In this document: piece by piece, positions 760 through 28,977 of the stretch
Layout of the letters: each line of letters begins with the position of its first letter
Position numbering within the stretch: the first letter of the stretch is position 1
Source: Thermoplasmata archaeon
GTDB lineage: Archaea; Thermoplasmatota; Thermoplasmata; Thermoplasmatales; Thermoplasmataceae
Assembly: GCA_021827885.1 (NCBI GenBank)
Contig: JAKAUD010000212.1
Coordinates: forward strand, 1 to 28,977
Length of the DNA stretch: 28,977 bases
Direction: 5' to 3'
Made by a program: the position numbers and the translations under genes
The notes under the pieces: model-generated
The model's database searches: none
The model's input: the letters and a program-made list of their open reading frames with translations, nothing else
Told to the model about the DNA's origin: nothing

Positions 760-1959
760 TCAATTTTTTATTAGATTTAATACTTGCGTAATTAATGCCG
801 TGGCATACATCCCTCTTCCGAGGCTGAAATCCAGGCACTTTTCCCTGCATCCAAACTCCACTGGATAAAACCTGATGCTTCTAAAATTTCCCGAGGAAGA
901 AAGTTCACCTTTGCCGTTTATCTTGAACATGGACCTTTCAACCTTAAATTCATTACATGTCTTCTCAACTATTTCACCGGGAATACCATTCTGGCGTGGA
1001 GTTTCAAATCCAACCAGCGGCATAACTGCAGAGACCTTTCCCTCAAGCGACAATTTAAAAATCTTATCAAAGTTGAATGAAGTAACTTCAATAAGGTCTC
1101 CTGATATGTTGAAATATCTATCTGTCTTCTGAACTAAATCTCCCTCAAATATTTGTGATCGTGATTCTGAATATTTACTCCTGGTTTCAAGCATGCGGTT
1201 AAACATCATGGATTGAAAGGAATGGACAAACATGATCTCAAGGGTTCTTGGCAATACATCCAGTGCATCTTCATACCTCCCTCCTGAATTAAGATGAGAT
1301 ATAATTGCCCTCTCAAAATTAAGAAATTCGGGATATTCATCCAGTGCCTTCTTGTAATCCCAATCGCGGGAGAGGTTTACCCTGTATTCTTCCGTGTCAA
1401 ACTCAGGATCATAGAGGTATAGCTTAGCCGCCTGCTCAAAATTACCCCTCAAAAGCTGTTCGCCAACTTTATGTGTATTGCTGCGAGTGGTGCCAAACCT
1501 TTGCTCGCCGTACAAATTCCAGTAGCCGCCTTCTTTCGTGATAGAGTTATTTGCCATCTCGATAGTTTCATCACTGATCCCATCAAGCTTCAATTTGATC
1601 TTGAACCTATTTCCAGCCAGATCTCCCATTCTGAGCATTTTGTCTGTCTTGAAGACTTCAAGAACTTCGCAATCTGAAAGCTTTTCCAGCTGATTGGAAT
1701 ATGTGCCATTGATGCAAAAATACTGGGTAGTCACTGCCCTCTTATCCTTCGTTCCGGCGAACGTGATTCTTTTCCTGCTGATCTGGAGCATGCGTGCCAG
1801 GACAGATACAAAGCGGTTCGTGTCCCAGTTGGTTAACTTCACCTTGAGGATGGTATATTTCCCGTCATATTTTGTTTCAAAAGCCTCCGGTATTTCTTCA
1901 ACAACGAAATCTTCGGCAGAATTTTTAATTAATCCCTGCAAATTCTGTGTCTTCATCAA
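760..1959 (-). CDS. truD: tRNA pseudouridine(13) synthase TruD
   Basis: Isomerises uridine 13 of tRNA to pseudouridine. The 399-aa length fits archaeal TruD. The catalytic motif FAGTKDKRA is at residues 67-75 with the nucleophile Asp72. The N-terminal SAEDFVVEEIP block and the later NLYGEQRFGTTRSNTHKVGE block are also family hallmarks. The start is either TTG at 1959, giving a 4-nt TTGA overlap with the stop of mqnC, or the next codon, ATG at 1956, giving a TGATG overlap. Either way it is the second gene of an mqnC-truD transcription unit and is probably translationally coupled. Its 3' end faces tbp across a hairpin. Confidence 0.95.
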   Translation of the reverse strand: MMKTQNLQGLIKNSAEDFVVEEIPEAFETKYDGKYTILKVKLTNWDTNRFVSVLARMLQISRKRITFAGTKDKRAVTTQYFCINGTYSNQLEKLSDCEVLEVFKTDKMLRMGDLAGNRFKIKLKLDGISDETIEMANNSITKEGGYWNLYGEQRFGTTRSNTHKVGEQLLRGNFEQAAKLYLYDPEFDTEEYRVNLSRDWDYKKALDEYPEFLNFERAIISHLNSGGRYEDALDVLPRTLEIMFVHSFQSMMFNRMLETRSKYSESRSQIFEGDLVQKTDRYFNISGDLIEVTSFNFDKIFKLSLEGKVSAVMPLVGFETPRQNGIPGEIVEKTCNEFKVERSMFKINGKGELSSSGNFRSIRFYPVEFGCREKCLDFSLGRGMYATALITQVLNLIKN

Positions 1960-3062
1960 TTATAATTCCTTATAGTCCTGTACATATTATCTCTCTCTAC
2001 AGGTATCATGCCTATTTCCTTAACACTCTCTATGATAATTTCTTTCCTGAGATTACCAACACTCTTGCCGGTAGCAGGGATGACCTTCTCATCATAAATT
2101 GTTCCGCCCCAGTCGTTTGCCCCATACAAAAGGGCCATTTGACCCATCTGAACGCCATTTGTTAGCCATGAGGATTGTATTATGGGTAAATGTTTATTGA
2201 AAACAATTCTCGATATTGCTATATTTTTCAGCACGTCAACCCCACCTGCCCTATACTTAACAATATTTTCCTTTTCAAGTTGCGTATTGCCGGGTTCAAA
2301 GTTCCATGGTGTAAAGGAAACAAACCCGTGATATTTCTTTTGCAGCTCCAGTATTGAAAGCAGGTGTTCCGCCTTATGCCTGCTCTCTTCCACATGACCA
2401 AACATCATGGTCGCGCTTGTCCTGATTCCCAATTTATGGGCTTCTTCCATTATGCTCAACCATTCTTTTCCACTTCCCAAGGGTCTTCTTAATATCTTTC
2501 TCACCTCATCAGAAAATATCTCGGCCCCTGCCCCTGGAATAGTTTCAAGTCCAGCTTTGCGTAATGTTTCAAGAAGTTCTGGGATTGTTATCTTTTCTTT
2601 CTTAGAAATAAATGAAAGTTCTGACGTGGATAGTCCGTGAATCCCAAGATCTGGAAATTTTTCATGAAGAGTCTGAAATAGGTTTACATAATAGTCAAGG
2701 GGCAAATCAGGATTAACTCCGCCCTGTATAAGCAACTGCTTGATCCCAAACGTGTCATAAAAATGTTTTACTCTCAATACCACGTCTTCCACATTCAGCA
2801 TGTAGGCATCATCCTCTGATCCTGTCCTGTAAAATGCACAAAATTTGCACCTGACATTGCACACATTCGTATAATTCATAATCATGTTTGATACAAAACT
2901 GACCTGCTTTCCGGTAAGGCCATCGGTAATGGACCTTGCCATTCTTCCAAGGTCATTGATGTTTGCAGAATCATACATGAATACAATCTCATCGTACGAT
3001 GGCGAATCACCGCGGTTTACTTTCTTCCATATGTCAGAAAGTATACCCTCATACTGGCTCAT
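1956..3062 (-). CDS. mqnC: Cyclic dehypoxanthinyl futalosine synthase MqnC (radical SAM)
   Basis: Radical SAM enzyme of the futalosine menaquinone pathway that cyclises dehypoxanthine futalosine. The [4Fe-4S] motif CNVRCKFC uses Cys68, Cys72 and Cys75 of 368 residues. MqnC-type blocks are LLIQGGVNPDLPLDYY, RTSATMMFGHVE, FTPWNFEPGNT and the C-terminal IPVERDNMYR. The FxPWxFxPGNT block separates it from MqnE, which usually has FIPLxFxxENTPL. The expected GGGAEI loop reads GAGAEI here. It is divergent from mqnE-mqnA and overlaps truD downstream. MqnC versus CofH-like assignment rests on these motifs and on the mqn context. Confidence 0.88.
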   Translation of the reverse strand: MSQYEGILSDIWKKVNRGDSPSYDEIVFMYDSANINDLGRMARSITDGLTGKQVSFVSNMIMNYTNVCNVRCKFCAFYRTGSEDDAYMLNVEDVVLRVKHFYDTFGIKQLLIQGGVNPDLPLDYYVNLFQTLHEKFPDLGIHGLSTSELSFISKKEKITIPELLETLRKAGLETIPGAGAEIFSDEVRKILRRPLGSGKEWLSIMEEAHKLGIRTSATMMFGHVEESRHKAEHLLSILELQKKYHGFVSFTPWNFEPGNTQLEKENIVKYRAGGVDVLKNIAISRIVFNKHLPIIQSSWLTNGVQMGQMALLYGANDWGGTIYDEKVIPATGKSVGNLRKEIIIESVKEIGMIPVERDNMYRTIRNYN

Positions 3063-3229
3063 AACTTGGATATATCTAATCGTGTAATAACATTTTCTTG
3101 GAAATTTTTATTCATCAACATATGGCGGAAATCCCTTACCAAAGGACTATTTTAGGTCACATTTTATGACGGGAACCTCCAAATTCAAAAATTGGCAATT
3201 ATTAACTATTAATCTGCAATTAAGCTCTC

Positions 3230-4348
3230 ATGAATATCGGGTCATATGAATCTTCATACTGGTTTGATATAATTTCTTCAGGACACAGATTGGACTTCAA
3301 TGAAGCCAGGGAAATAATTGAAGATATGACAGTACACGAAATCATGCATCTTGCTGATCAATTGACAGGTACACAGATAGGAGACACCGTGACCTACGCG
3401 GTTTCCTATAATATAAATTACAGCAACTACTGCACAGCAAGTTGTCCAATATGTGCTTTTTACGTCCCTGCTAAACTCAAGGGCAAGTCAAGCAAGGGGT
3501 ATGAACTTTCTATAGAGGATGTAAGATCAGAGTTGAAAAAAGCGGAAAAGCTCAACCCAACTGAGATTCACATTGTTGGGGGATTTAATCCCTACCTACC
3601 GATAGAATACTATGAAAACGTTTTTCGCACTGTCAAGGAAAGTCTTCCGGAAGTGACACTAAAGGCTCTTACCATTCCGGAAATCGATTTTATTGCCCGT
3701 GAAACAGGAAATTCCATAAGGGAGGTTATAGAGAGGTTTCATGAGGCTGGAATGGATGCACACACCGGAGGCGGGGCTGAAATTTTCAATCCCGAGGTAA
3801 GAAAGCAAATTTCAACCCCGGAAAAGATATCCGGTGAAGACTGGCTTAAGGATGCTAAAATTATTCACTCTATGGGCATTCGGGGGAATTCAACAATGAC
3901 TTATGGGCATGTGGAAAACTGGGATAATATCATTGACCATATGATAAAAATCAGAGAAAACCAGAAGGAGGTACCAGGATTTCTGTCCTTCATCCCGCTG
4001 AAATTCAGTATAGAAAACACCCCCCTAAAAAAAATGGGGAAGGTGAAGCACCCAGCTTCTGGCGAAAAGGATCTTAAGGTTGTTTCCATGGCGAGGATAA
4101 TTATGGGTCAGGACATTAGAAACATCAGTGTTTACTGGGTTTCGGTTGGAAAGGGAATAGCACAGGTAGCCCTGAATGGAGGGGGCAACGATCTTGTTGG
4201 AACGGCAGTAAGTGAAAAAATCTTCGGTGCCACTGACAGAAGGGAATATACCACCATAGAAGAACTTAACAACATGGTTGAATCCATAGGAAAGATACCA
4301 GCTAGGAGAGATACTTTCTATAATATCGTCGGGAAGTTTGACAGATAA
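3230..4348 (+). CDS. mqnE: Aminofutalosine synthase MqnE (radical SAM)
   Basis: Radical SAM enzyme that adds the adenosyl radical to the MqnA product to make 6-amino-6-deoxyfutalosine. The cluster motif CTASCPIC uses Cys68, Cys72 and Cys75 of 372 residues, the same spacing as in the paralogous mqnC across the divergent promoter region. MqnE-type signatures are EIHIVGGFNPYLPIEYY, LTIPEIDFIARETG, GGGAEIFNPEVR, SGEDWL, RGNSTMTYGHVE and FIPLKFSIENTPL. It ends with TAATG, its stop sharing one base with the start of mqnA, so the two are co-translated. The intergenic region 3063-3229 must hold both promoters; no clear TATA box was singled out there. Confidence 0.9.
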   Translation: MNIGSYESSYWFDIISSGHRLDFNEAREIIEDMTVHEIMHLADQLTGTQIGDTVTYAVSYNINYSNYCTASCPICAFYVPAKLKGKSSKGYELSIEDVRSELKKAEKLNPTEIHIVGGFNPYLPIEYYENVFRTVKESLPEVTLKALTIPEIDFIARETGNSIREVIERFHEAGMDAHTGGGAEIFNPEVRKQISTPEKISGEDWLKDAKIIHSMGIRGNSTMTYGHVENWDNIIDHMIKIRENQKEVPGFLSFIPLKFSIENTPLKKMGKVKHPASGEKDLKVVSMARIIMGQDIRNISVYWVSVGKGIAQVALNGGGNDLVGTAVSEKIFGATDRREYTTIEELNNMVESIGKIPARRDTFYNIVGKFDR

Positions 4349-5082
4349 TGATTGCATTAATTGATCTAGTTCATAGTTATCCTCTCTACCATGCTCTTTC
4401 AAGCACAGAAGAAATTTCACGGGGATCTCCGCAGAAAAACCTGAAACTTGTGCTTGATGGAAATGCGGAATGTGGCATGGTTTCACTTATTGACTATTTC
4501 AAGAACAGGGATTCGCTGAACTTAATAAGTGGACCCAATATTCACAGCCGCGGAAGAACCATATCCACCATAGTGGTTTCTCGTGGTGAAAGCCTTCATC
4601 ATGGGTCAAGGATAGCTGTCACATCTCAAACCGAGACTACTTCATTTTATCTGGGACAGATATTGAAAATTGAATTTCCTCAATCTGAAATGATAAGGTG
4701 TTCCTATAATTCAGCAAAAGAACTCCTAGAAGAAGAACAATTCGCACTGGTTATCGGAGATGAAGCATTAAAAGCATACTCTGGGGATTATAGAATAATA
4801 ATGGACATAGGTCTTCATTATTCGAGATTGACATCTTACTATCCGGTATATTCCGTGATGGTTTCCAGGGACAAGATCAGCGATGAAAGGATAGGAACAA
4901 TAAACAACGCTTCTTTCAACTCATCTAAACATATTGAGGAATCTATTCTGGAAGGAGAGGAAAGAGGGTTTTCAAGAGAGCTCCTTGTTTCATATTATCG
5001 GGCGATTTCATATACCTATGATGATATCATTCGTAGAAGCATTGATTACACATACATGAATTACAAGAAAAGAATTCTTTAG
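4348..5082 (+). CDS. mqnA: Chorismate dehydratase MqnA
   Basis: Periplasmic-binding-protein-like fold enzyme (MqnA/MqnD family) proposed to dehydrate chorismate to 3-enolpyruvyl-benzoate, the first step of the futalosine route. Visible features are the N-terminal LIDLVHSYPLYHAL strand-turn (about residues 4-17, replacing the usual NxxPLxxGL), GNAECGMVSLIDY (about 38-50), TSQTETTSFYLGQIL and ALVIGDEAL, the last typical of MqnA. At 244 aa it is somewhat shorter than bacterial MqnA (about 270-280). MqnD is the alternative, but GDEAL and the pairing with MqnE favour MqnA. The start overlaps the mqnE stop by one base. No mqnB or mqnD is present in the window. Confidence 0.8.
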   Translation: MIALIDLVHSYPLYHALSSTEEISRGSPQKNLKLVLDGNAECGMVSLIDYFKNRDSLNLISGPNIHSRGRTISTIVVSRGESLHHGSRIAVTSQTETTSFYLGQILKIEFPQSEMIRCSYNSAKELLEEEQFALVIGDEALKAYSGDYRIIMDIGLHYSRLTSYYPVYSVMVSRDKISDERIGTINNASFNSSKHIEESILEGEERGFSRELLVSYYRAISYTYDDIIRRSIDYTYMNYKKRIL

Positions 5083-11218: not shown

Positions 11219-11983
11219 TAGATCGAGGTTATGGAGAAATACAAGAATCTCTGGAGAATCGAAAGGCCATTCCGGACAATGAAGTCATTCCTGGAGATAG
11301 GGCCGGTAGGACATTTGAGGTCGGAACGCTTAAGATCACATGTGTTTGTGTGTGTGCTTTCCCTGCTTCTGTCAAGGTTCATGGAGAGGCATGATGTCAG
11401 GAGGGAAAGTGATGAACGTGCCGATCTGCACAGGAACATCATGGAACGCAGGAAAAGGATCGGGTCACTGCAGGTGAGGAAAGGAAAGGTAAAGATCATA
11501 GAATCCATTGCAGGTTCATTCCTGAGGTATATCCCATACAGGATTGAGAACAATACTGTTAAAACCAGTGCAAGGGACAATGCCATATCTGCTGCAGAGA
11601 ACAGGATGGGAAGGTTCCTGTTAGTATACAAAGGTGAATACTCCGATTCCAGTTGTTTGAGTGTATACAGGCATAGGGATGCAATAGAGGAGGCTTTTCG
11701 TGTGCTCAAAACAGATCTGGATATATTCCCACTCAGGGATCACAAGGAATCCATTGTACGTGGATCTGTGTTTGTGTTCTTTTTATCGCTGCTCATAAGA
11801 TCGGCACTTAGAAGGGGCATGGAATCTACCAAACTCAACGAGAAATACTCCATGGAGAGAATGTTCCTTGAGCTTGAGAAACTGCACATGATAGAGGATC
11901 AGAATGGTGACCTGAAAGAACTGGAGAGAACGAAAAAACAGAAAGATATCCTCAATCTCCTGAACTCGGTATCGTGGTGGTAA
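11219..11983 (+). pseudogene. Chimeric remnant of IS4/IS1634-like transposases
   Basis: A 250-codon open stretch from ATG 11231 holds two copies of the C-terminal DDE 'Y-x2-(W/R)-x-(I/V)-E-x2-F-R-x-(M/L)-K' signature. These are YKNLWRIERPFRTMK at residues 4-18 and YRHRDAIEEAFRVLK at 146-160, each followed by the HVFVCVLSLLLSR or SVFVFFLSLLIRS helix that normally ends such proteins. A real transposase has this block once, near its C-terminus. The N-terminal catalytic regions are absent, and an in-frame TAG at 11219-11221 directly precedes IEVMEKY. It is best read as a fusion of the tails of two related transposases with the intervening DNA lost. It is not expected to be active. Confidence 0.7.
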
Positions 11984-27144: not shown

Positions 27145-27255
27145 AATTTGTTATAAGTATCATGTGATATTGATATTTTTGGTACAAACTCACCTCACAA
27201 AACTGGAAAGCGTTCAAATGTGCGAACATTCAGGATATCTTTGGATTGAGGGGTA

Positions 27256-27263
27256 TTTTTATA
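27256..27263 (+). promoter_or_regulatory. TATA box of ubiX
   Basis: TTTTTATA lies about 46 nt before the ATG at 27306, predicting a leader of roughly 20 nt. That leader contains GAAGGA at 27293-27298, 7 nt before the ATG, a fair Shine-Dalgarno match, unlike the leaderless genes elsewhere in the window. Confidence 0.45.
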
Positions 27264-27305
27264 GCGTTGAAAAGACAATAAATTAATCCATCGAAGGATT
27301 ATCCA

Positions 27306-27869
27306 ATGATGAGTAAAAAAATAGTCCTTGGGGTCACCGGTGCTTCAGGCAGCATCCTGGCATGGAGATTCATGGAGGCGGCTAGAGGCAATGAAATTCA
27401 TCTTATAATTTCCAGGAATTCGGATCAGGTGATCGATTATGAAATGGGAAAGTCATCTTCAGATTTTGAAAAATTATCAACGTTCTCATACAGTGATTCT
27501 GATCTAGCTGCCAGAGTAAGTTCCGGCAGTTTCATGTTTGATGCGATGGTGGTAATGCCCTGCTCAATGAATACCCTTGCAAAGATTGCCGGTGGAATAT
27601 CTGATTCGCTTATCACAAGGGCAGCCGCGGTTTGCCTTAAGGAAAGAAGAAGATTGATCCTTGTTCCAAGGGAGATGCCCCTGAGTGAAATCGCCCTTGA
27701 AAACATGCTGAAGTTGACAAGGGCTGGGGCAATAATTGCACCATCCATGCCTTCATTTTATACCCTTCCCAAGAACGTTGATGACTTGGTGAATTTTGTC
27801 GTATCAAGGATTCTGGATCTGTCAGGAATAGAGAATGATTTAATAAAGAGGTGGAAACAGGAAGGATAA
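27306..27869 (+). CDS. ubiX: Flavin prenyltransferase UbiX
   Basis: Makes prenylated FMN, the cofactor of UbiD-type decarboxylases. The 187-aa length is normal. The FMN-binding GASGS is at residues 12-16, the central MPCSMNTLAKIAGGISD block at about 84-100, the PREMPLSEI loop at 121-129 and the tail SRILDLSGIEND. A second in-frame ATG follows immediately at 27309. In an organism with the futalosine pathway it may serve the late decarboxylation step of menaquinone synthesis; no ubiD is in the window. It heads a unit with the Mut7-C gene and pelA. Its stop, GGA TAA, lies where the next gene's start would be expected. Confidence 0.95.
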   Translation: MMSKKIVLGVTGASGSILAWRFMEAARGNEIHLIISRNSDQVIDYEMGKSSSDFEKLSTFSYSDSDLAARVSSGSFMFDAMVVMPCSMNTLAKIAGGISDSLITRAAAVCLKERRRLILVPREMPLSEIALENMLKLTRAGAIIAPSMPSFYTLPKNVDDLVNFVVSRILDLSGIENDLIKRWKQEG

Positions 27870-27885
27870 ATATCTCGCTGACCAC

Positions 27886-28311
27886 ATGGTTCTCAGGCTT
27901 GGAAAGTGGATGAGGATAATGGGAATGGATACGGAATATGCGAAAATAAATTTTGATGATGACATGATAAGAGCTTATTGCGATGAAACCGGAAGAGTGT
28001 TGATCACTCGGGATGTTCAACTGTCAAGGGCTCAAAAGAACTCAATACTTATCAGGTCCACTGAAATAAAGCTGCAGATAATGGAAATCACAAAATCCAT
28101 CACGCCAAAAAAGAATGCATTCCTGACGATATGTACTGTCTGCAATACAACTCTGGAACCGTGTGATCCAGAAAGTTGTCTCGATCGGATACCACCAGAC
28201 GTAATTGGTTCCAGGACCAGTATATGCAGAAATTGTGGGAGAATTTACTGGTGTGGTTCCCACACAGAGAATATGTTAAAGATTCTAGAAAACTGCGGTG
28301 TTTACAATTGA
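27886..28311 (+). CDS. Mut7-C RNase-like protein with zinc ribbon, start codon apparently lost
   Basis: Mut7-C (DUF82) family, a PIN-like fold predicted to be an RNase, with a zinc ribbon. From ATG 27886 the protein has 141 aa, with LGKWMRIMGMDTEYA, LITRDVQLS (Asp43) and zinc ligands Cys83, Cys86, Cys114 and Cys117 (CTVC, CRNC). However, the family's opening block, (M)K-(F/Y)-L-A-D-x-M, is encoded in frame just upstream as KYLADHM (27868-27888), including the conserved acidic Asp. That frame contains no ATG, GTG or TTG between the stop at 27844-27846 and 27886. Inserting one G after 27867 would restore ATG AAA TAT and an ATGA overlap with ubiX. The gene is thus either truncated, wrongly sequenced or unusually initiated. 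It overlaps pelA by 4 nt. Confidence 0.85.
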   Translation: MVLRLGKWMRIMGMDTEYAKINFDDDMIRAYCDETGRVLITRDVQLSRAQKNSILIRSTEIKLQIMEITKSITPKKNAFLTICTVCNTTLEPCDPESCLDRIPPDVIGSRTSICRNCGRIYWCGSHTENMLKILENCGVYN

Positions 28312-28977
28312 AGGCGAGAAATGTTCCCGAGGAACCTGGATGGAAAGAAATTCTCATAGAGAATGACAACGACCTCTGGTACATAAGGAGCATCATTTCA
28401 AACGGCGACCTTATACGGGCAACGGTAATGAGAAGGGAGGAGAAAAAGGGTGATATGGATCGCAGCAAAGAACAGAAGCGAACTCCCACCAGGGTGACCG
28501 TAAGGATTGATGAAACATTTTTTCAACCTTTTACCGGCAGGCTGAGGATAAGCGGCCAGATCACGGATGGAAACGCTGAATTGAGAGGATCTTTCCAGTC
28601 AATCAACATCTCCCCCATGGATGAGGTAGAGCTTTTCAAGGAAAACTGGTCTGATGCATCCGAGGGCATAATCAATGAGGCACAGCTTAAATGGGTTGGC
28701 AACAACATCCTGTTTGTTGTTCTCGATGATGAACAGTGTGATATCTTTACGGTAAAGGCATACGGCATAGAGAACCATGGAAGGATTTTTTCCGGGAAAA
28801 GCGGAAAGGGATATGAGCAGCAGAAATCACCATCCACTTACTATTCAGATATAGAAAAAACCATAAACTCATTTTCCGCGATTAAGGCCATAATAATTGC
28901 AGGCCCCGGCTTTGAAAGGGAGAACCTGCTTTCCTATCTTACGAAATCAGGGAAATTCTTCAGGCAGCAGCTCAGAT
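28308..28977 (+). CDS. pelA: Pelota/Dom34 ribosome-rescue factor, 5' part
   Basis: Frees stalled ribosomes together with aEF1A/ABCE1, the archaeal counterpart of Dom34. The frame starts at TTG 28308, sharing TTGA with the stop of the Mut7-C gene, and runs to the window edge (223 codons, incomplete). The N-terminal domain (about residues 1-130) shows NDNDLWYIRSIISNGDLIRA, RTPTRVTVRIDE and LRISGQITDG, matching the Pelota Sm-like domain. The central eRF1-like domain begins near YYSDIEKTINSF and continues AIIIAGPGFERENLLSYL. TTG is preferred because the family's usual length before DDLW fits and no ATG precedes it. It is co-transcribed with the Mut7-C gene and likely translationally coupled to it. 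Confidence 0.92.
   Translation, partial: MKARNVPEEPGWKEILIENDNDLWYIRSIISNGDLIRATVMRREEKKGDMDRSKEQKRTPTRVTVRIDETFFQPFTGRLRISGQITDGNAELRGSFQSINISPMDEVELFKENWSDASEGIINEAQLKWVGNNILFVVLDDEQCDIFTVKAYGIENHGRIFSGKSGKGYEQQKSPSTYYSDIEKTINSFSAIKAIIIAGPGFERENLLSYLTKSGKFFRQQLR

Follow-up and report, generated by a model that had tools for sequence, protein, structure and literature searches.

Absence of canonical start codons before the Mut7-C gene in part of the Thermoplasmataceae and its probable translation from a non-canonical site inside ubiX

The ubiX, Mut7-C and Pelota-like genes

The window, the whole stretch of 28,977 nt that was analysed, ends in three genes on the forward strand, ubiX, a Mut7-C gene and a Pelota-like gene (Table 1), the second of which is a probable RNA-processing gene of this acid-loving archaeon. 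UbiX ends in GGA TAA, and its stop (27867–27869) overlaps the Lys codon of Mut7-C. The 3' end of ubiX carries a Shine-Dalgarno-like sequence, GAGGTG, which is an exact 6 nt match to the complement of the 16S 3' end; at the five loci of this genus the matches are 6–8 nt. In the Mut7-C frame, TAA TAA (27841–27846) is followed by AGA GGT GGA AAC AGG AAG GAT AAA TAT CTC GCT GAC CAC ATG. The sequence-only reading had pointed out that this frame encodes KYLADH 5' of its first ATG (27886) and that no other ATG, GTG or TTG follows the stop at 27844 before this codon, and both statements are borne out by the window.

The Pelota-like gene is truncated by the end of the window, and the piece present matches TIGR00111 at 5.2e-35, which is under the cut-off. 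Its start overlaps the Mut7-C stop as TTGA (28308–28311), which means that the Pelota-like gene would start with TTG. Besides ubiX, the window contains a menaquinone biosynthesis gene and a pair of radical SAM genes whose C-terminal region is of the CofH/MqnC type (all within 1956–5082), as well as a DDE transposase remnant (11231–11983), for which the PF01609 match covers the last 46 profile positions only.

Table 1. Features at the ubiX/Mut7-C junction and their positions in the window
Feature	Coordinates	Strand	Basis or remark
UbiX flavin prenyltransferase gene	27306..27869	+	TIGR00421 4.4e-69; PF02441 2e-45
GAGGTG, Shine-Dalgarno-like	27848..27853	+	within UbiX Arg-Trp codons
Candidate initiation codons AGG 27859, AAG 27862, GAT 27865	27859..27867	+	spacing table, tree
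Mut7-C coding region (PF01927), including unannotated K-Y-L-A-D-H N-terminus (27868-27885)	27868..28311	+	
First conserved Asp, LAD block	27880..27882	+	
First in-frame ATG, LADHM Met	27886..27888	+	P0001 prediction begins here
Pelota-like gene (eRF1 domain)	28308..28976	+	PF03463 3.3e-21; exits window

In a Pfam search, PF01927 matches the extended Mut7-C frame at 1.3e-32 over residues 2–140 (profile positions 2–145 of 146), the alignment beginning at residue 2, the K. The whole domain is present, including the N-terminal K-F-x-x-D and the Cys4 zinc knuckle, and Cys 90, 93, 121, and 124 are invariant among 18 aligned sequences. The closest solved relative is MUT-7 8q66 (E 5.8e-4 by sequence, 1.8e-3 by fold), which was at the top of a fold search that returned no matches at E 0.001 or better. 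A PIN nuclease fold finds little support there, with a protein titled PIN domain at rank 46 (E 0.91). Mut7-C has been described as having a TOPRIM-like fold, with its function in archaea stated there to be unknown (PMC11347159).

Start codons across the family and the order

One base added at 27867 would give an ATGA-type junction, and on this ground the sequence-only reading took a single G to be missing. A fresh inactivating mutation, a sequence error, and non-canonical initiation or frameshifting were put forward as explanations. The junction has now been aligned with the closest genomes. In a second assembly (G001, a Thermoplasmata MAG; locus L001 on contig JAJZXT010000187.1) the junction letters are identical to those of the window, and the two sequences are 99.76% identical over 4109 nt, with 10 differences, none of which is at the junction. 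The stated coverage of that contig is only 1.77, which leaves some room for an error. L031 lies on the same contig as L001 and was left out of the counts.

Three other species of the window's genus, here called g1, have Mut7-C proteins with 56–60% identity (L002, L003, L004), and their junction reads AAT AAA TAT CTN G(C/T)N GA(C/T) CAT ATG. There is no ATG, GTG or TTG directly before the LAD block in any of the three. With positions given in codons relative to the first conserved Asp, L002 has an in-frame ATG at -15 and a GTG at -1, L004 has a GTG at -1, and L003 is the only one of these three without any upstream ATG, GTG or TTG. The junction geometry is alike in all five g1 loci. When L002, L003, and L004 are compared with one another, pairwise dN/dS is 0.12–0.15, which indicates purifying selection on Mut7-C in these species; the comparison tried with the window was saturated.

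Mut7-C is present in 74 of the 77 family genomes. The family survey comprised these 74 loci and the window (n=75), to which 23 loci from other families of the order were added, giving 98 in total. Loci were called start-less when the 16 codons preceding the first Asp included no ATG, GTG or TTG. By this rule 22/75 family loci are start-less, 2/75 have only a GTG at -1, and 51/75 have a canonical codon at -4 or further up, some of which are doubtful, such as the ATG at -15 in L002 and the codons of g5 that lie inside UbiX. The count is the same when the rule is extended to 20 codons (22/75), and rises to 30 with 12 codons and to 34 with 8. The start-less loci are found in g1 (3/5, two of the three being the window and the near-identical G001), g2 (5/5), g8 (1/1), g12 (11/12), and g14 (2/2). 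Outside the family none of the 23 loci is start-less; 22 have a canonical codon 4–7 codons before the conserved Asp, and the other, cut by a contig end, has a GTG at -2. A start of the M-K-F-L-A-D type would therefore appear to be ancestral, in agreement with the family N-terminus, M-K-(F/Y)-L-A-D, from which the sequence-only reading had argued. The absence of a canonical start is older than the species and, judging by the tree, probably older than genus g1.

The neighbouring genes at the same loci served as controls. The UbiX start is canonical in 45/45 assessable cases (10/55 could not be assessed), and a same-strand Pelota match is present at 87/98 loci, with a canonical start in 86 of the 87. 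The lone exception, L026 (G009), has GCT GAC CTG ATA ATC after AGGTGA and no ATG, GTG or TTG ahead of its conserved block.

That a base was freshly deleted at 27867, or was lost there through miscalling or misassembly, is contradicted by the identical junction in the second assembly, by the lack of a canonical start adjoining the block in three other g1 species, by the 19 loci of four other genera that are start-less under the strict rule, and by the dN/dS values, and can now scarcely be entertained; a mutation in a single species is ruled out by the relatives with the same gap. The apparent one-base gap seems to be a coincidence of the overlap with the UbiX stop, since the Mut7-C frame is +1 relative to that of UbiX in 53/55 UbiX-linked loci, whatever their start. 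That the gap is common to so many relatives would suggest that unusual start codons, rather than a fresh break, are probably involved, and it is to the last of the explanations offered from the sequence, non-canonical initiation or frameshifting, that the comparison points.

Coding constraint and candidate initiation sites

Changes were counted on the Mut7-C protein tree for 21 start-less loci, with L001 left out as its junction equals that of the window. In the LAD block (codons -3 to +1) there are 7, 8, and 27 changes at codon positions 1, 2, and 3 (binomial p = 4e-5), in the Lys codon 2, 4, and 7, and further upstream, over the eight codons from -12 to -5, 29, 33, and 32. The four g1 loci have 0, 1, and 6 changes in the LAD block (p = 0.007). 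By this measure the LAD block is still evolving as coding sequence and the bases upstream of it are not, which sets the onset of Mut7-C coding constraint near the Lys codon.

These counts bear on the suggestion that Mut7-C starts at the ATG at 27886, the Met of LADHM, with strand 1 and the Asp lost and the upstream block a relic. This is the first canonical codon of the frame, and three of the four public protein clusters that match g1 take this Met (P0001) or its equivalent (P0003, P0004) as their first residue, the fourth (P0002) beginning at the -15 ATG of L002. However, the changes upstream of the ATG are of the synonymous type, both in g1 and in the 21 loci. The AlphaFold model (mean pLDDT 94 with an alignment of 18 sequences, 95 for the first ten residues) has a confident strand 1 at residues 2–5, with Asp6 next, and according to this model a start at 27886 would remove both strand 1 and an Asp that may be catalytic. 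The first Asp of the LAD block was located in all 98 loci analysed, using a search pattern that demanded an Asp and that no locus failed. A start at the later Met is thus distinctly improbable, and gene-calling programs would seem to trim away the conserved N-terminal residues of Mut7-C.

Upstream of the block the codons differ between genera. Genus g12 is the sister group of g1 (support 1.00) in the tree built from Mut7-C, UbiX, and Pelota, and the GAT at 27865 is at the position homologous to the AUU/AUA of g12. At this ancestral start position, -5, the 12 g12 loci have ATT (7), ATA (4) or TTA (1), and nine of the 11 with ATT or ATA have GGAGG 8–9 nt before the codon, eight of them as AGGAGG; L056 and L067 have no 5 nt Shine-Dalgarno match at the right spacing. 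In the four ATA loci an ATG would be one change away. In g5, ATT or ATA is present at -5 in 5/5 loci, with an additional TTG at -3 in L081, so that the -5 codon is AUU or AUA in 16/17 loci of the two genera, the exception being L048. This locus (G065) is also the only one in g12 with an in-frame ATG (at -12); its UbiX ends GAT TAA, and the Mut7-C frame relative to that stop differs from that of the sister loci. In g2 there is a CTG at -8 in 5/5 loci, where g4 has GTG in 2/2, and the single g8 locus has a CTG 6 nt behind GGAGGT. A defined start codon is conserved in g12 and g5 (AUU/AUA) and in g2 (CUG at -8), but not in g1, where the window, L002, L003, and L004 have AGG/AGG/AAG/AGG at -7, AAG/AGC/ATC/ATC at -6, and GAT/AAT/AAT/AAT at -5, with no accepted near-cognate codon at a conserved place among these positions. 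AAG and AGG are the weakest of the near-cognate codons. The two g14 loci lack near-cognate codons throughout -9 to -3, and neither has a Shine-Dalgarno match of 5 nt at the site.

A Shine-Dalgarno match of at least 6 nt is present in 18/22 start-less loci and in 7/53 others, the loci being taken without correction for relatedness. Compensation by the Shine-Dalgarno sequence has been reported for GUG and UUG starts (PMC5622118), and the longer matches at the start-less loci are in line with this.

A +1 shift at the UbiX stop (GGA UAA A to AAA), through which some UbiX::Mut7-C fusion would be made and Mut7-C would need no start of its own, would be consistent with the +1 relation of the two frames in 53/55 UbiX-linked loci, although 36 of those 53 are not start-less. 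In 16 of the 17 start-less UbiX-linked loci the UbiX stop is 13 nt before the Asp codon and overlaps the residue before F/Y-x-A-D. A shift would also account for g1 and g14, neither of which has a suitable near-cognate codon, and it may operate in these two genera. On the other hand, no conserved slippery P-site codon was found at the UbiX stop, where there are eight codons in the 17 loci (GAT 7, AAG 2, CAA 2, GGA 2, and one each of GAG, GAA, AAA, and CAG), which would be expected to re-pair poorly at +1. In the window, the region 27810–27960 folds no better than its shuffles (z 0.25), giving no sign of a stimulatory RNA structure, and an Rfam search of 27200–28400 returned no match. Further, the upstream flank contains no UbiX at five start-less loci out of 22, in the sense that a tblastn search with the window's UbiX gave no match on the same strand over about 1.2–1.5 kb; AUA follows GGAGG at four of the five, and CUG follows GGAGGT at the fifth. 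The four ATA loci cannot be explained by frameshifting out of UbiX. L037, which is among the four, has an uncharacterised open frame of 105 codons that terminates at the site; none was seen at the other three. Overall, frameshifting is an unlikely explanation.

Another alternative is that a terminating ribosome restarts wherever the Shine-Dalgarno and the UbiX stop dictate, on any codon. The UbiX stop overlaps the first conserved codon of Mut7-C, and for the restart codon there are candidates only. Among the g1 species the codons at the likely site differ while the position of the stop and the Shine-Dalgarno stay the same, and coupling between stop and start has been demonstrated in Haloferax (PMC6728339). 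Against this is the AUU or AUA at -5 in 16/17 loci of g12 and g5, from which it can be argued that the identity of the codon matters in those genera. Restarting without regard to the codon is quite improbable, though it may occur in g1.

The preferred reading, to which a probability of about 0.64 is given, is that the Mut7-C gene is intact and that its translation begins at a non-canonical site lying within the 3' end of ubiX. In its favour, there is no ATG, GTG or TTG upstream of the conserved N-terminus, this absence is conserved among relatives, the N-terminus is under coding constraint, and the start-less loci have the longer Shine-Dalgarno matches. The strong Shine-Dalgarno nested in the Arg-Trp codons of UbiX would position a ribosome that had probably only just finished translating UbiX, and translation would then begin immediately ahead of the LAD block, at a codon other than AUG, GUG or UUG. 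In g12, the sister genus, and in a more distant genus this codon would be AUU or AUA, in others CUG, and in the window the candidates are AGG, AAG, and GAU. Points against this reading are the codons of g1 and g14 set out above, the Shine-Dalgarno context of L056 and L067, the -15 ATG of L002, the open frame at L037, and the presence of the fidelity factor aIF1. A general laxity of initiation is not suggested, since SUI1, the fidelity factor aIF1, is found in 56/61 genomes, including all four of g1, and loss of this factor was rejected as a cause. In Sulfolobus, aIF1 favours discrimination against non-canonical starts (PMC6237735).

Other genes with odd starts appear to be rare. A cleaned ortholog search in which 1.14 Mb of G015 was compared with 0.55 Mb of G004 (284 pairs, 568 ends) flagged 17/568 ends, most of which were not credible on inspection by eye. 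About three are left in G015, together with one in G004, the names ROK-type kinase, Mre11-like, and AlaRS-like being given by eye. The ROK-type kinase (G015 L159:16032-17030, +) has its N-terminus after ATT CTG GAC GTA CTG, behind AGGTGG, with no canonical start, and overlaps a 453-codon open frame upstream. The Mre11-like gene (G015 L163:7079-8203, -) has ACG GTC, preceded by a stop, directly before R-F-L-H-I-S-D, with no canonical start, and the third G015 candidate, a glycosyltransferase, has a G-run that could hide an indel. The AlaRS-like frame (G004 L143:11448-14051, -) has no canonical start; there is an ATG a few codons upstream in another frame, which makes a one-base indel in the assembly likely. 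The search did flag the window's Mut7-C against both genomes (7/38 and 2/36 ends flagged in all). It would not flag the Mut7-C of G015, which has a distant in-frame TTG, and the yield is therefore a lower bound.

Comparison with known systems

In bacterial prfB there is programmed +1 frameshifting at a stop codon. The ubiX/Mut7-C junction is similar in that its second frame is likewise +1 and opens at the stop codon, but no conserved slippery codon or structure was found there, and a shift would join two unrelated proteins. Termination-reinitiation pairs, in which reinitiation between stop and start has been shown in Haloferax (PMC6728339, PMC10666635), share with it the short overlap of stop and coding sequence and the internal Shine-Dalgarno. 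The overlaps reported for such pairs are of the kind ATGA or TGATG, whereas the Mut7-C junction has no canonical start.

Changes of start codon of this kind are reported to be very rare: of 61,358 reconstructed AUG starts, two had become CUG and one AUU (PMC5622118). By contrast, there is no AUG, GUG or UUG before Mut7-C in 22 loci from five genera of one archaeal family, and AUU/AUA has been kept in one genus although AUG is one step away. If confirmed, this would offer a natural system in which archaeal start-codon selection and reinitiation could be studied. A literature search over titles and the openings of abstracts found no such start described for archaeal Mut7-C, which is weak evidence of absence.

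In bacteria, infC, which encodes IF3, has an AUU start. Conserved non-canonical starts have been characterised in infC and in sigR, the latter having a GTC start behind a strong Shine-Dalgarno, AGGAGGTG, with GTC in 32/34 Streptomyces (PMC5472188). The conserved non-canonical start codon is common to these genes and Mut7-C, as is, for sigR, the strong Shine-Dalgarno before it. In infC and sigR the weak start limits expression, and that of Mut7-C may likewise serve to keep expression low. It is possible, if doubtful, that reinitiation in g1 is blind to the codon, the start being set by where UbiX terminates and by the internal Shine-Dalgarno, and that in g12 AUU/AUA is kept by selection for a deliberately weak start on the Pelota-linked Mut7-C, even after loss of the overlap with UbiX. 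Were both parts true, this would be an archaeal counterpart of the start-codon control of infC and sigR. It would differ from them in being archaeal, in using several codons across genera, in having its start nested in the upstream gene, and in belonging to a gene for neither an initiation factor nor a sigma factor.
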